Positions 14,313 through 20,985 of a DNA stretch of 64,000 nt are shown one piece after another. The notes under the pieces are model-generated. The model was given only the letters and a program-made list of their open reading frames with translations, had not been told where the DNA came from and made no database searches. A program made the translations under genes and the position numbers. Within the stretch, counting starts at the first letter, position 1. The number at the start of each line of letters is the position of its first letter. Origin of the DNA: Halanaerobium kushneri (GTDB lineage Bacteria > Bacillota > Halanaerobiia > Halanaerobiales > Halanaerobiaceae); assembly GCF_900156285.1 (NCBI RefSeq), contig NZ_FTNC01000001.1:62001-126000 (forward strand). Direction: 5' to 3'.

Positions 14313-14341
14313 TTGACAGACTGGAGTTAGTTTGTTATTCT
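14313..14341 (+). promoter_or_regulatory. Predicted promoter of the betaine transporter operon
   Basis: TTGACA, 17-base spacer, TATTCT. It would start RNA near 14348, giving a structured leader of about 180 nucleotides before the ATPase gene. Confidence 0.65.
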
Positions 14342-14356
14342 TGTTAAGGAGTTGAG

Positions 14357-14414
14357 CAAGCGGGTTGAATTTATCCCGCCTTATTATCAGAGTTATTAGC
14401 TTGCTGATAATAAT
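14357..14414 (+). promoter_or_regulatory. Two leader hairpins upstream of the betaine transporter
   Basis: GCGGG pairs with CCCGC around a 12-base loop, followed by a second inverted repeat TTATTATCAG / CTGATAATAA. Together with the terminator at 14439 they make up a leader with several stems, a candidate regulatory RNA of no class I recognise. Confidence 0.5.
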
Positions 14415-14438
14415 AAATTAACATTAATTTAATTATAT

Positions 14439-14482
14439 GGTTTAGGATTTGTTCCCTGAGAACACTTTCTAAACCTTTTTTA
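14439..14482 (+). terminator. Attenuator-like terminator before the betaine transporter ATPase gene
   Basis: GGTTTAG pairs with CTAAACC, with an inner GTTC/GAAC stem, followed by seven T residues. It lies between a good promoter and the first gene of the operon, so it could regulate readthrough. It is far (about 190 bases) from the esterase stop codon. Confidence 0.65.
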
Positions 14483-14526
14483 ATGCCAGTAAATTTATGG
14501 CAAAAACAAATAAAGAGGTGAAAATA

Positions 14527-15705
14527 TTGAAGATAAAAGCGGAAAATCTCTATAAAATATTTGACGGTAAAGGTCAAAAAGAGATCGAAATGCTGAAATC
14601 GGGTAAAAGCAAAGATGATATTTTAGAAAAAACTGGGGCTACTGTTGGAATCAATAATGCCAGTTTTGAAGTAGAAGAAGGCGAAATATTTGTGATTATG
14701 GGACTTTCCGGTAGTGGTAAATCGACTCTATTGAGAACCTTAAACCGCCTGGTGGAGCCTACTGCCGGTAGTGTAGAAATTGATAATACAAATATTATGG
14801 ATTTAAATAAAGATCAATTACGTGAATTTAGAAAAGAAAAGTTTGGTATGGTTTTTCAAAACTTTGCTCTTTTTCCCTACCGTACTGTTTTAGAAAATGC
14901 AGAATTCGGTTTAGAAATACAGGGAATGGATAAAGATAAAAGAAGAGAGAAAGCAATGACTGCTCTTAAACAGGTCGGTCTGGAAGGGTACGAAGATCAA
15001 AAACCTGATCAGCTAAGTGGTGGAATGCAGCAAAGAGTTGGGCTTGCAAGAGCTCTAGCTGTTGATACAGATATTTTACTAATGGATGAGCCATTTAGTG
15101 CTTTAGATCCGCTGATCAAAAAAGATATGCAGGATAAACTTTTAGATTTATATGAACATATAGATAAAACCATTATTTTTATTACTCATGATCTTGATGA
15201 AGCATTAAAATTGGGAGATAGAATTGCGATTATGAAGGATGGAGAAATTGTTCAGGTTGGTAATCATGAAGAAATTTTAACCAATGCTGAAAATGATTAT
15301 GTAGCAGAATTTGTTCAGGATGTTAATCGTTCTCGAGTTCTGACAGCAGAAGATATTATGGACAAGCCAGAAGCTGTTCTCTATCAACAGGATGGCTTAA
15401 GGACTGCACTCCATAAAATGAGACATAACGAACTGGGTAGTATTTTTGTGCTTGGTAAAAATAGAAGATATAGAGGGATTGTTACGATAGAGGATGTTGT
15501 CGAGTCTTTAAATAAAGATAAAGAAAATCTTACGGAAATAATTAAAGAAGTTCCAATAGCACAACCTGAGGAAAGTGTTAATGACTTATTTTCAAAAATT
15601 GCTGATATAAATACACCTTTACCGGTCCTTGATGAAAATAAAAAGTTAAAAGGTATAATTGTAAAAACACATGTTGTAGCAAATCTAGCTGCAGAAAATG
15701 TTTAA
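14527..15705 (+). CDS. Glycine betaine/proline ABC transporter ATP-binding protein with CBS domains
   Basis: Energises uptake of compatible solutes during osmotic stress. TTG at 14527 after AAAGAGGTG is the better start; an ATG at 14497 in frame lacks a ribosome site. Walker A is GLSGSGKST, the signature is LSGGMQQRVGLARAL, Walker B is ILLMDEPFSALD. After residue about 280 two CBS domains follow, which in OpuA-type transporters sense ionic strength. The domain order and length of 392 match OpuAA/ProV. The next genes are the binding protein and a permease, in the order ATPase, binding protein, permease. Confidence 0.94.
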   Translation: MKIKAENLYKIFDGKGQKEIEMLKSGKSKDDILEKTGATVGINNASFEVEEGEIFVIMGLSGSGKSTLLRTLNRLVEPTAGSVEIDNTNIMDLNKDQLREFRKEKFGMVFQNFALFPYRTVLENAEFGLEIQGMDKDKRREKAMTALKQVGLEGYEDQKPDQLSGGMQQRVGLARALAVDTDILLMDEPFSALDPLIKKDMQDKLLDLYEHIDKTIIFITHDLDEALKLGDRIAIMKDGEIVQVGNHEEILTNAENDYVAEFVQDVNRSRVLTAEDIMDKPEAVLYQQDGLRTALHKMRHNELGSIFVLGKNRRYRGIVTIEDVVESLNKDKENLTEIIKEVPIAQPEESVNDLFSKIADINTPLPVLDENKKLKGIIVKTHVVANLAAENV

Positions 15706-15781: not shown

Positions 15782-16720
15782 ATGTACAAGACAAAATTAA
15801 TTTCAACTTTACTAATCGTTCTACTAGGATTTGGAGTATTTGCTGCAGTACCACAGGTTCAGGCAGCTGAGGATACAATCGATTTTGGTTATGTTCAGTG
15901 GCCTGGAGTTACAGTAAAAACCCATGTCGCAGCAAAAGTTGCTGAGTACTTAGGTTATGATACTAAAATGACAGCAGCTCCAGAAACAGTTATCTTTAAG
16001 AGTTTAGAAAATAAAGATCTTGATGTGTTTTTAGGTAACTGGCTGCCCACAATGGAAAAAACTTATAGTGAATATCAGAAAAAAGGTGTAGTTCATAATG
16101 TTCGAGTTAATCTAGAGGATGTTGTCTATAGAACTGCTGTACCGGAATATGTTTATGAAGCAGGAGTTAAATCGTTAGCAGATTTAAAAGAGTATGCTGA
16201 TAAATTTGACAGTAAGATTTATGGTCTTGAACCAGGTAATGCCGGAAATATTGTAATTCAGGATGCCATTAAAAATAATAAATATGGTTTAAAAGACTGG
16301 ACTTTACAATCCAGTTCTACAGCTGGCATGCTTTCTGCAGTTCAGAGAGCAGTTAACAGTAAAGAGTGGATTGCTTTTAACGGTTGGAAACCTCATTATA
16401 TGAATTTGATGTTTGATATTAAATATCTCGAAGATCCCGAAGGTATCTGGGGAGAAAGTGACAGTGTTTATACTGTAGCACGAGAGGGATATCAGGATGA
16501 AAATCCGAATTTCTATAAGTTCTTAAAACAATTTACCGTAACAGCTCCTATTCAAAATAAGTGGATTGACGAATATCAAAATAAAGACCGAGATCCTGAA
16601 GCTGTAGCTGAAGACTGGATTGCCAATAATTTAGATATTGTCAATCAGTGGGTATTTGGAGTTAAGAGTACTGATGGAAGAATGGGCAGAAAAGCAATAG
16701 CTGAAATAGTAAATAATTAA
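15782..16720 (+). CDS. Glycine betaine/proline-binding protein (OpuAC/ProX family)
   Basis: Extracytoplasmic receptor for glycine betaine or a related quaternary amine. The first 29 residues are a signal peptide (LISTLLIVLLGFGVFAAVPQ, then VQAAED); there is no lipobox Cys. The mature protein keeps the family pattern: FGYVQWPGVTVKTHV, DVFLGNWLPTM and GWKPHYMNLMFDIKYLEDP, which include the aromatic-cage tryptophans. 312 residues, RBS TGGAGGGA. It lies between the ATPase and permease genes. Confidence 0.94.
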   Translation: MYKTKLISTLLIVLLGFGVFAAVPQVQAAEDTIDFGYVQWPGVTVKTHVAAKVAEYLGYDTKMTAAPETVIFKSLENKDLDVFLGNWLPTMEKTYSEYQKKGVVHNVRVNLEDVVYRTAVPEYVYEAGVKSLADLKEYADKFDSKIYGLEPGNAGNIVIQDAIKNNKYGLKDWTLQSSSTAGMLSAVQRAVNSKEWIAFNGWKPHYMNLMFDIKYLEDPEGIWGESDSVYTVAREGYQDENPNFYKFLKQFTVTAPIQNKWIDEYQNKDRDPEAVAEDWIANNLDIVNQWVFGVKSTDGRMGRKAIAEIVNN

Positions 16721-16796: not shown

Positions 16797-17645
16797 ATGG
16801 TGATTATTATTAACAGTATTATTGAACTCTTTACAACAAAAATTCCTCTGGGGAACTGGGTAGAAAATTTGGTTAATTTTTTAATAAATAATTTTAGTGG
16901 TCCTTTAAATACATTTTCATCATTAATTGAATCAATAGTAGGTGGAGTGGAAGTAGTGCTTGCTTTTCCTCATCCACTGGTTTTAATTGCAATTTTTGCT
17001 GCAGCAGCCTGGAAGCTTAAAGGGAAAAGACTGGCAGTGTTTGTAGCTTTAGGATTGGGTCTTGTATTGAATATAGAAATGTGGGATCCGCTGGTTATTA
17101 CTTTGGCTTCAATAATTACTTCTGTCTTGGTGGCTCTTGTAATTGGAATTCCAGTTGGAATAATTAAAGCTCATAATAAATGGGTGGATTTAATAACTCG
17201 CCCTATACTGGACTTTATGCAGACAATTCCACCTTTTGTTTATTTAATTCCTGCTCTAATGTTTTTTGGTCTTGGTAATGTATCAGGAGTAATTGCTACT
17301 GTAGTTTTTGCAATTGCACCTCCTATAAGATTAACCTATCTCGGGATAAAACAGGTAGATGAAGAATTAGAAGAAGCCGGTCATGCATTTGGGGCAAACT
17401 GGTGGCAGATTTTATTTAAAATTGAACTACCGGGGGCAATGCCATCAATAATGATGGGGATTAATCAGTGTATTATGCTCTCACTTTCAATGGTAGTTAT
17501 TGCAGCCATGATTGGAGCCGGTGGTCTGGGAAAACCAGTGTTAAGATCTCTTAATGTTGTTGATATTGGACTTGGTTTTGAAGCAGGTCTCGGAGTAGTA
17601 ATTATTGCTATGGTTCTGGATAGAATGTTTGGTAGGGACTCATAA
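16797..17645 (+). CDS. Glycine betaine/proline ABC transporter permease (ProW/OpuAB type)
   Basis: Membrane component of the betaine importer. 282 residues with about six hydrophobic segments; the permease signature near residue 195 is EELEEAGHAFGANWWQILFKIELPGAMPS in part (EEAGHAFGANWWQILF). The start is uncertain: ATG 16797 and GTG 16800 overlap the AAAGGATGGTG ribosome site, so translation may begin a few codons later. Last gene of the operon. Confidence 0.92.
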   Translation: MVIIINSIIELFTTKIPLGNWVENLVNFLINNFSGPLNTFSSLIESIVGGVEVVLAFPHPLVLIAIFAAAAWKLKGKRLAVFVALGLGLVLNIEMWDPLVITLASIITSVLVALVIGIPVGIIKAHNKWVDLITRPILDFMQTIPPFVYLIPALMFFGLGNVSGVIATVVFAIAPPIRLTYLGIKQVDEELEEAGHAFGANWWQILFKIELPGAMPSIMMGINQCIMLSLSMVVIAAMIGAGGLGKPVLRSLNVVDIGLGFEAGLGVVIIAMVLDRMFGRDS

Positions 17646-19372: not shown

Positions 19373-19425
19373 TAAACAAAGTAAAAAGATAATAAATTTT
19401 AATAGGAAAATGCCTCATTGTTCTA

Positions 19426-19610
19426 ATGAGGTAGAGGCGCAAATTTTGATCAGTAATCTGCTTGCTTAAGGCTTAAACCGCTGCAGCAGAGGAAAGGCAA
19501 ATTTGCCGAAGTTTTCAGTCAGGGTTTAATGGCTGTTTGCTGGGTCTGTATATAATATATGCAGAACTGTCATTAAAAGTTTTCCAGGCTTTTAATGTTG
19601 AGCTATCTCA
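19426..19610 (+). ncRNA. Lysine riboswitch (L box)
   Basis: Conserved L-box segments occur in order: GAGGTAGAGGCGC, AGTAATCTGCTTGC, GAGGAAAGGCAAATTTGCCG, TGCTGGGTCTG, GCAGAACTGTCAT and GAGCTATCTC. P1 forms by GAGGTAG pairing with CTATCTC. It binds lysine and, with the terminator just downstream, should shut off the lysA-dap operon when lysine is abundant. Confidence 0.93.
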
Positions 19611-19646
19611 AAAGATGTAAGAGGTGATTTCTCTGATTAAGTATTT

Positions 19647-19752: not shown

Positions 19753-20985
19753 ATGAAAACAATAACTATACCTGAATTAAAAATTAGAGAAATTGTTAAA
19801 GAATATGGAACGCCTTTTCATATTTATGATGAAAAGACAATTGTTGACCGTTTAAATAATTTGATTTCTTCTTTTGACTGGGTTGATTTTAAAGAATATT
19901 TTGCTATTAAAGCCAATCCAAATCCACATATTTTAAAAATAATGCAGGAAAATAATTGTGGTGTTGATGCTGCTACGGTTTCTGAGATTAAGCTGGCAGA
20001 AATGGCTGGCTTCAGCGGGGAAGAGATAATGTTTACTTCTAATCTGACCACTCTTGACGCCTATCAATATGCAGTTGAACGTGGTTGTATTATTAATATT
20101 GACTGGGCAGCAGATATTTATGAACTTTTGGAGGCAGAAATAATACCTGAGAATATCTGTTTTAGATTAAATCCAGGATCAATTGAAAATGAAATTATGG
20201 GGGATTCTAAGGAATCCAAATTTGGTTCTACTGCAGGGCAGATTAAAGAAGCGATTGCTTTTTTAGTTGAACAGGGAATTAAATCAATTGGACTGCATAC
20301 AATGGTTGTTTCGAATGAAAATGATCCTCAAATTTTTGGTGAATATACAGAAATGCTTTTTAACTTTGCCAGAGAAATAATTGAGGAATATCAAATTAAA
20401 ATCGATTTTATTAATATTGGAGGCGGAATTGGAATTCCCTATCAATCTGAGACAGAGGTTGATGTTGAAGCAATTGCAGGTGCAGTCAATGAATCGTATG
20501 ATAAAATTTTAAGAGAAAACGGACTGCAGCCTAAAATATTTATGGAATCTGGCCGCTATATTACAGGAGAGTCAGGTTATTTAGTGACCAGAGTAATCAA
20601 AGAAAAAGAAACATACAAAAAATATCTGGGAGTAGATGCTTCAATGTCAGATTTAATGAGACCTGCAATGTATAGAAGTTATCATTATATAACCAACCTT
20701 GATGCAGAGGTACGTGGAAAAAAGAAAATGATCGAATATGATGTTATCGGCTCCCTCTGTGAAAATAATGATAAATTTGCTATTGACCGTAAACTTCCCG
20801 AAAGTAAATTAGGGGATCTGCTGGTTGTTCATGACACAGGGGCCCATGGGCATGCAATGGGTTTTAATTATAATGGAATGCTCAGAAATGGAGAATTTTT
20901 ATATACAATTGATGGCGATATTAAACAGATCAGGCGTGATGAGACTTTTGAAGATTACACAAATACTGTAATAGGAGGCTATTAA
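19753..20985 (+). CDS. lysA: Diaminopimelate decarboxylase
   Basis: Last step of lysine synthesis: decarboxylates meso-diaminopimelate with PLP. The PLP lysine is in YFAIKANPNPHILKIM near residue 52; HTMV, GGGIGIPY and ESGRYITGESGY bind the cofactor phosphate and substrate; the C-terminal DTGAHGHAMGFNYNG is typical. 410 residues. It is unusual that the last-step enzyme is first in the operon. RBS TGGAG. One base separates it from dapA. Confidence 0.94.
   Translation: MKTITIPELKIREIVKEYGTPFHIYDEKTIVDRLNNLISSFDWVDFKEYFAIKANPNPHILKIMQENNCGVDAATVSEIKLAEMAGFSGEEIMFTSNLTTLDAYQYAVERGCIINIDWAADIYELLEAEIIPENICFRLNPGSIENEIMGDSKESKFGSTAGQIKEAIAFLVEQGIKSIGLHTMVVSNENDPQIFGEYTEMLFNFAREIIEEYQIKIDFINIGGGIGIPYQSETEVDVEAIAGAVNESYDKILRENGLQPKIFMESGRYITGESGYLVTRVIKEKETYKKYLGVDASMSDLMRPAMYRSYHYITNLDAEVRGKKKMIEYDVIGSLCENNDKFAIDRKLPESKLGDLLVVHDTGAHGHAMGFNYNGMLRNGEFLYTIDGDIKQIRRDETFEDYTNTVIGGY

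Follow-up and report, generated by a model that had tools for sequence, protein, structure and literature searches.

Halanaerobium bacteria live in salt, and the window analysed here, by which the whole stretch of 64,000 nucleotides is meant, carries the three genes of an opuA operon together with the leader that precedes them (Table 1). The five closest of the nine named records for opuAA belong to Halanaerobium species, with 84-95% identity, and the genus g1 of our sample was taken as Halanaerobium. The binding protein and the permease appear closest to choline systems, though both stay under the curated cut-offs. With regard to the start codon, a query beginning at the ATG at 14497 met one in-frame stop (five TAA, one TGA) in 6 of 10 other family matches; when the query began at the TTG at 14527, in-frame stops were found in none of the family matches, and TTG stands at the opuAA start position in 9 of 11 aligned upstream regions. 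One orthologue (L040, in G005) was matched in two pieces, residues 1-311 and 307-392, through an assembly error or a broken gene. A second OpuAC-type binding protein is encoded elsewhere in the window's own genome (L200:5649-6569, G000:C7), behind a leader without a clear terminator by eye.

Table 1. Features of the opuA locus, with positions in the window
Feature	Position	Strand	Basis or remark
Sigma-A-type promoter TTGACA-17-TATTCT, extended -10 (TGT)	14313-14341 (TTGACA 14313-14318; TG-T-TATTCT 14336-14341)	+	Motif scan; kept upstream of opuAA in the class
P1, inverted repeat GCGGG/CCCGC	14360-14364 / 14375-14379	+	Weakly kept in genus leaders
P2, second inverted repeat TTATTATCAG / CTGATAATAA	14381-14390 / 14404-14413 (core 14384-14410)		Candidate protein-binding site (DNA or RNA)
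Intrinsic terminator hairpin with T6 (putative attenuator)	14439-14481 (GGTTTAGGA 14439-14447; TGTTC 14450-14454 / GAACA 14460-14464; TTCTAAACC 14467-14475; T6 14476-14481)	+	Folding energy, covariation
Shine-Dalgarno AAAGAGGTG	14512-14520	+	Sequence; aligned in relatives
opuAA/proV-type ATPase with CBS domains, TTG start	14527-15705	+	TIGR01186 447 bits (cut-off 327); PF00005, PF00571
OpuAC/ChoX-type substrate-binding protein	15782-16720	+	PF04069 199 bits; TIGR03414 294 bits, under cut-off 379
Permease, ChoW/ProW type (opuAB)	16797-17645	+	TIGR03416 347 bits, under cut-off 363; PF00528
Neighbours: esterase; helicase; glutamate dehydrogenase			PF00756 (esterase); the other two named by reading

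The initial annotation had described a promoter, a GCGGG/CCCGC repeat, a second inverted repeat and a T-run terminator ahead of the ribosome site, and all of these elements were located between 14313 and 14520. The promoter agrees with the consensus at 10 of 12 positions. The terminator hairpin, which a simple terminator scan missed because its stem has internal loops, folds with a dG of -16.1 (z -5.3; 0 of 200 shuffles as good), and the leader as a whole (14345-14530) gave a z of -3.1, with 2 of 200 shuffles as good. By DNA similarity search the leader is present once in its own genome. Promoter-like matches in the surrounding 3 kb numbered 13, against 12.5 expected; the promoter and the terminator are therefore credible because relatives keep them, and not because of the scan.

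Conservation was followed in 59 genomes of the class, 35 of which have an opuAA orthologue at E <= 1e-120, and up to 350 nt upstream were taken from all 35. By using a script that asked for a sigma-70-like promoter and then a hairpin with T-run (dG <= -10) lying 15-110 nt before the start, the order promoter, terminator, opuAA was found in 29 of the 35, with an exact TTGACA in 27 of these calls. By reading, 32 of 35 show an exact TTGACA and, between it and the start, a hairpin with T-run; the reading adds L063, L065, L066 and L068 to the scripted calls and drops L073, which is without TTGACA. The other two failures by reading, L052 and L053, are without such a leader, and there opuAA comes directly after an opuAB-type frame. 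In 8 of the 29 scripted calls (L035, L046, L047, L056, L059, L062, L064 and L069) the hairpin of the script is larger than or different from the one read, and in L064 the promoter differs as well, which leaves 21 clean rows. Dinucleotide shuffles of the same 35 regions produced the layout in 6, 4, 4, 4, 1 and 6 cases, and in none with an exact TTGACA. Conservation, on which the initial annotation had made its leader depend, thus holds for the layout of promoter and terminator but not for the stretch that precedes the hairpin.

As a baseline, 380 kb of the window's own contig were scanned with slightly different cut-offs (dG <= -12, 20-100 nt). Among the 128 genes having 110 nt or more upstream, four show the layout, opuAA being one of them; this is a lower bound, as at least one further promoter-terminator leader, that of a helicase-type gene, lies just beyond the 100-nt limit. 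This DEAD-box helicase-type gene (named by reading; minus strand, start 13086) has its own leader at 13309-13086, with TTGACT-17-TATACT at 13309-13281 and a 14-pair terminator-like hairpin at 13225-13194 on the minus strand; a hairpin sequence similar to it can be read in the upstream region of one opuAA orthologue (L048). The baseline also includes promoter-terminator leaders at G000:C28:257522-257992 and 351018-352757, before genes read as rimP-like and ilvB-like. Outside the class, the layout was found in 1 of 20 orthologues, or in 1 of 19 by script: of 20 matches one, in G139, was without a locus, and L209 was added to the 19 scripted. L209 comes from a Candidatus Mcinerneyibacterium MAG; its opuAA shares 61% identity with that of the window, TTGACA lies close to the start, and no terminator was found in it. 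Horizontal transfer of this gene is possible.

For the hairpin itself, 21 leaders sharing a GGTTTAG-like lower stem were chosen by eye, 20 of them from families f1, f2, f4 and f7 and one from f5. Other hairpin-bearing leaders were excluded because their stems differ; in f10 and f11 different hairpin sequences occupy the same position. Over nine pairs, 97.4% of the cells are paired, G-U pairs occur and the loops are very variable. In the covariance check that had been proposed for the region upstream of opuAA, the hairpin covaries: both sides differ in five of its nine pairs, where shuffles give 2.7, and 15 cells show such changes, where shuffles give 4.3. These figures are to be read with the structure derived from the same 21 sequences, so that it tends to beat slid controls, and with shuffles that ignore relatedness. 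The covariation, the G-U pairs and the variable loops would suit an RNA better than a DNA operator, and the hairpin seems to be kept by selection as an RNA structure at opuAA. A hairpin that contains G-C pairs and runs straight into a T-run lies between the promoter and the start codon, as in an attenuator. The distance from the end of the T-run to the start is 32-82 nt in all of 33 leaders except L056, L063 and L069.

A search of the 59 genomes with a hairpin model, under strict filters able to lose weak matches, found no second strong copy, and the hairpin therefore looks like a cis element of the opuA operon. The best matches beyond the 21 training sites were in G044 (6.6e-4) and G004 (0.0015), beside mirror-strand matches at training sites. 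In G044 (L102:1380-1640) a GGTTCAG hairpin stands behind an FmdB-type gene with no opuA adjacent and TTGACA not intact, and the gene after it, in place of opuA, was read as DUF362/ferredoxin-like; this genome is 62% complete, so that loss of opuA is not certain. The f2 leader and f7 also have FmdB-type genes upstream (the name, and the case of L066, by reading). At these loci the terminator could serve both genes, and in f7 it may serve the upstream gene too. As for the possibility, raised with the initial annotation, that the terminator belongs to the esterase transcript only, such an esterase comes next upstream in no more than 4 of the 34 loci for which an upstream ORF was found, and the idea was rejected. 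The nearest upstream ORF runs on the same strand at 21 of the 34 loci and on the opposite strand at 13 (12 without L066, where a same-strand FmdB-type frame was read), and the hairpin is present in all of the latter.

The stretch between promoter and hairpin behaves differently. When transcription is assumed to start 7 nt after the -10 element, this stretch measures 26-115 nt in 17 of the 21 aligned leaders and about one base in the four f7 genomes. Across eight genus leaders P1 has 80% of its cells paired and two pairs changed on both sides, and it is mostly broken in G003 and G004; P1 and P2 taken together are hardly above shuffles. Both are absent in the ninth genus leader, G009, which was omitted from the genus alignment, and neither was seen in f4, f5 and f7, families that retain the terminator. 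Pairing of the leader with the 5' arm of the terminator, as an antiterminator would need, was no better than in mononucleotide shuffles in 16 of 17 leaders, L054 being the exception (11 of 300 shuffles). In the minimum free energy fold the 3' arm of P1 hides the Shine-Dalgarno, and this candidate was rejected because the complementary bases are not kept in relatives.

These observations lead us to prefer, with a probability of roughly 0.7, the reading that the leader is a transcription attenuator in which neither an aptamer nor an antiterminator can be recognised. RNA polymerase would start at the near-consensus promoter and meet the intrinsic terminator within about 45-180 nt, many transcripts would stop there as a short leader RNA, and opuAA-opuAC-opuAB would be made from the readthrough fraction. 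The order promoter, hairpin with T-run and Shine-Dalgarno, with its conservation and covariation, can be read from the DNA; we infer that the hairpin acts as a terminator in the cell and that the extent of readthrough is under regulation. Also judged from sequence, expression of opuAA should depend on readthrough, since 26 of 33 leaders have no promoter-like site of at least 9/12 on the 3' side of the terminator. The other seven have only weak 9/12 sites 3' of the T-run, and a second promoter after the terminator was rejected. The stretch preceding the hairpin is not conserved and shrinks to about one base in f7, and the hairpin sequence and the length and sequence of the leader change while promoter and terminator stay; for these reasons the control would be placed at the hairpin and the elongating polymerase rather than in an upstream aptamer. 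The decision could then fall to NusA/NusG-type factors, to an RNA- or polymerase-binding factor, or to the conditions of the cytoplasm. A factor acting on the hairpin or on the polymerase would make the antiterminator, which the leaders do not conserve, dispensable.

The alternatives are partly compatible with an attenuator, and they differ in how well they account for the same observations. A leaky terminator with no regulatory role, one that just reduces basal expression or shields the operon from transcripts arriving from upstream, is possible though doubtful: it would agree with the many same-strand upstream ORFs and with the G044 hairpin standing behind another gene, yet the same loci preserve a strong promoter 5' of the terminator, and the terminator persists also where the upstream gene runs the opposite way. 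The initial annotation had left the choice between riboswitch and attenuator. The attenuator is upheld by the position of the hairpin, which in most class orthologues follows a conserved promoter and precedes opuAA, whereas P1 and P2 as an aptamer for betaine, K+, Na+ or c-di-AMP that switches the terminator is very unlikely. The leader does fold better than shuffles, P1 has its two doubly changed pairs, and the terminator follows P1 and P2; against this, leader structure is not kept beyond the closest relatives, the leader shows no better pairing with the terminator arm than shuffles do, f7 leaves almost no room for an aptamer, and a conserved aptamer upstream of an expression platform was not seen in the leaders compared. 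Rfam gave no match in the leader (window at gathering, leader at E up to 10, 11 loci comprising ten relatives and the window's own), the search at E up to 10 returning three matches only, far below gathering scores; the remark that no known class is recognised agrees with this at the thresholds used. The c-di-AMP riboswitch of this genome (RF00379; L111, G000:C21:14947-15071) stands elsewhere, before a Ktr/Trk-type potassium transporter gene. The target of BusR is a betaine importer, so that BusR-type c-di-AMP repression of the opuA promoter would share with the present leader the control of an osmolyte importer. Such control acts on DNA, BusR being described in the source as a c-di-AMP-dependent repressor at GAC-N22-GTC sites, one of them over the -35/-10 elements (PMC8517857). 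It is extremely improbable here: of the 33 leaders scanned, only L075 contains GAC-N22-GTC, and the window's leader is without it, which led to rejection of a BusR operator. The own genome gives six RCK_C matches, four in frames read as KtrA/TrkA-type and two in one 648-aa frame.

P2 deserves separate weighing, since it may be a protein site, at the level of DNA or RNA. In 8 of 9 genus leaders the dyad TTATCAG-N13-CTGATAA has invariant arms and a spacer of always 13 nt, whose mean identity over the eight is only 0.46, so that an inverted repeat with fixed spacing, conserved arms and a free spacer, the form expected of an operator, appears to be present. As an operator, P2 would let a dimeric protein bind about 35-65 bp after the assumed start and block RNA polymerase, with the terminator as a back-up. 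The half-sites lie 20 bp apart, about two helical turns, and variants of the same spacing occur in G022 (one mismatch), G013 (two) and G012 (three), although in G013 and G012 another spacing scores equally well. G000, G001, G005 and G007 each carry a single exact copy, always at opuA, and G009 carries none; a regulon was thus not found in the five genomes searched, and no regulator-like gene was seen beside the operon when the window neighbours were read. Among the matches listed, one-mismatch matches exceed those of a backwards-pattern control that is not matched in base content. Within two mismatches at N13 the dyad was not found in f4 and f5 leaders, and in f7 only L068 has such a match, upstream of its promoter. 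A dyad in f10 (L059 and L060, with two and three mismatches) was rejected as being at the level of chance in A+T-rich leaders. P2 may also form an RNA hairpin. The operator is judged unlikely, less so than the riboswitch; it could coexist with the attenuator, and a second layer of control, exerted by a protein at the N13 dyad, may be present in Halanaerobium.

That the leader responds to osmotic or ionic conditions, as was supposed at the outset, is plausible from the identity of the genes. In salt-corrected folding the window hairpin went from -12.8 to -14.9 kcal/mol between 0.1 and 1 M, and the other four of the five hairpins modelled likewise became stronger. Melting of the hairpin by salt was therefore rejected, as the modelled stability rises with salt, and since the hairpins grow stronger the modelled effect has the wrong direction for a simple induction by salt. 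A bolder form of the attenuator, for which we see only a slim chance, would make the terminator and the elongating polymerase themselves the osmosensor, with no aptamer, antiterminator or dedicated factor; ionic conditions in the cytoplasm would change readthrough of a hairpin that can start with the very first transcribed bases.

Among the matches listed from the titles and abstract starts of one open-access library, no paper on the opuAA leader was found. The nearest precedent is given by the ABC-leaders (PMC2965389), in which the leader of an ABC transporter operon likewise contains an intrinsic terminator. Four of the five that Figure 4 of that source shows resemble no known cis-regulator and all five can form an antiterminator, whereas in the opuAA leaders none is conserved and f7 is too short to hold one; the main text of that source contains none of the words betaine, opuA and Halothermothrix. 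The opuB motif (PMC11109978) and the proX motif (PMC8632094) are also structured leaders before compatible-solute ABC transporter genes. As their descriptions have it, the opuB riboswitch comprises five paired parts, with Shine-Dalgarno bases in its P1, and occurs mostly in Enterobacteriaceae, and the proX motif can hide the ribosome-binding site and belongs mainly to Spiribacter; compared on that ground, the opuAA leader differs by its transcription terminator, by having no conserved stem that hides the Shine-Dalgarno, and by the bacteria that carry it. The c-di-AMP riboswitch (RF00379) and the Na+ riboswitch (PMC9337991) likewise control transporters and osmotic-stress genes in relation to ions or osmolytes, in a tandem case described there by transcription termination, and they differ from the opuAA leader in that no Rfam model matches it. 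Within the window, a lysine riboswitch (RF00168, 105.9 bits) lies at 19424-19613, followed by a hairpin with T-run and by an ORF at 19753 that we take to encode a diaminopimelate decarboxylase.

What is new is a very small attenuator, as we read the leader, that is kept over the class. Were its readthrough to respond to salt, one could ask directly with this leader whether the ionic conditions of the cytoplasm can be sensed by intrinsic termination. Should readthrough prove not to respond to salt, the leader would be an ordinary attenuator or gate. If readthrough is salt-responsive, it would rank among the smallest control devices for osmolyte uptake, consisting of a promoter and a hairpin and kept over a class, and if terminator and polymerase do act as the osmosensor, a strong and constant promoter would thereby become salt-controlled.
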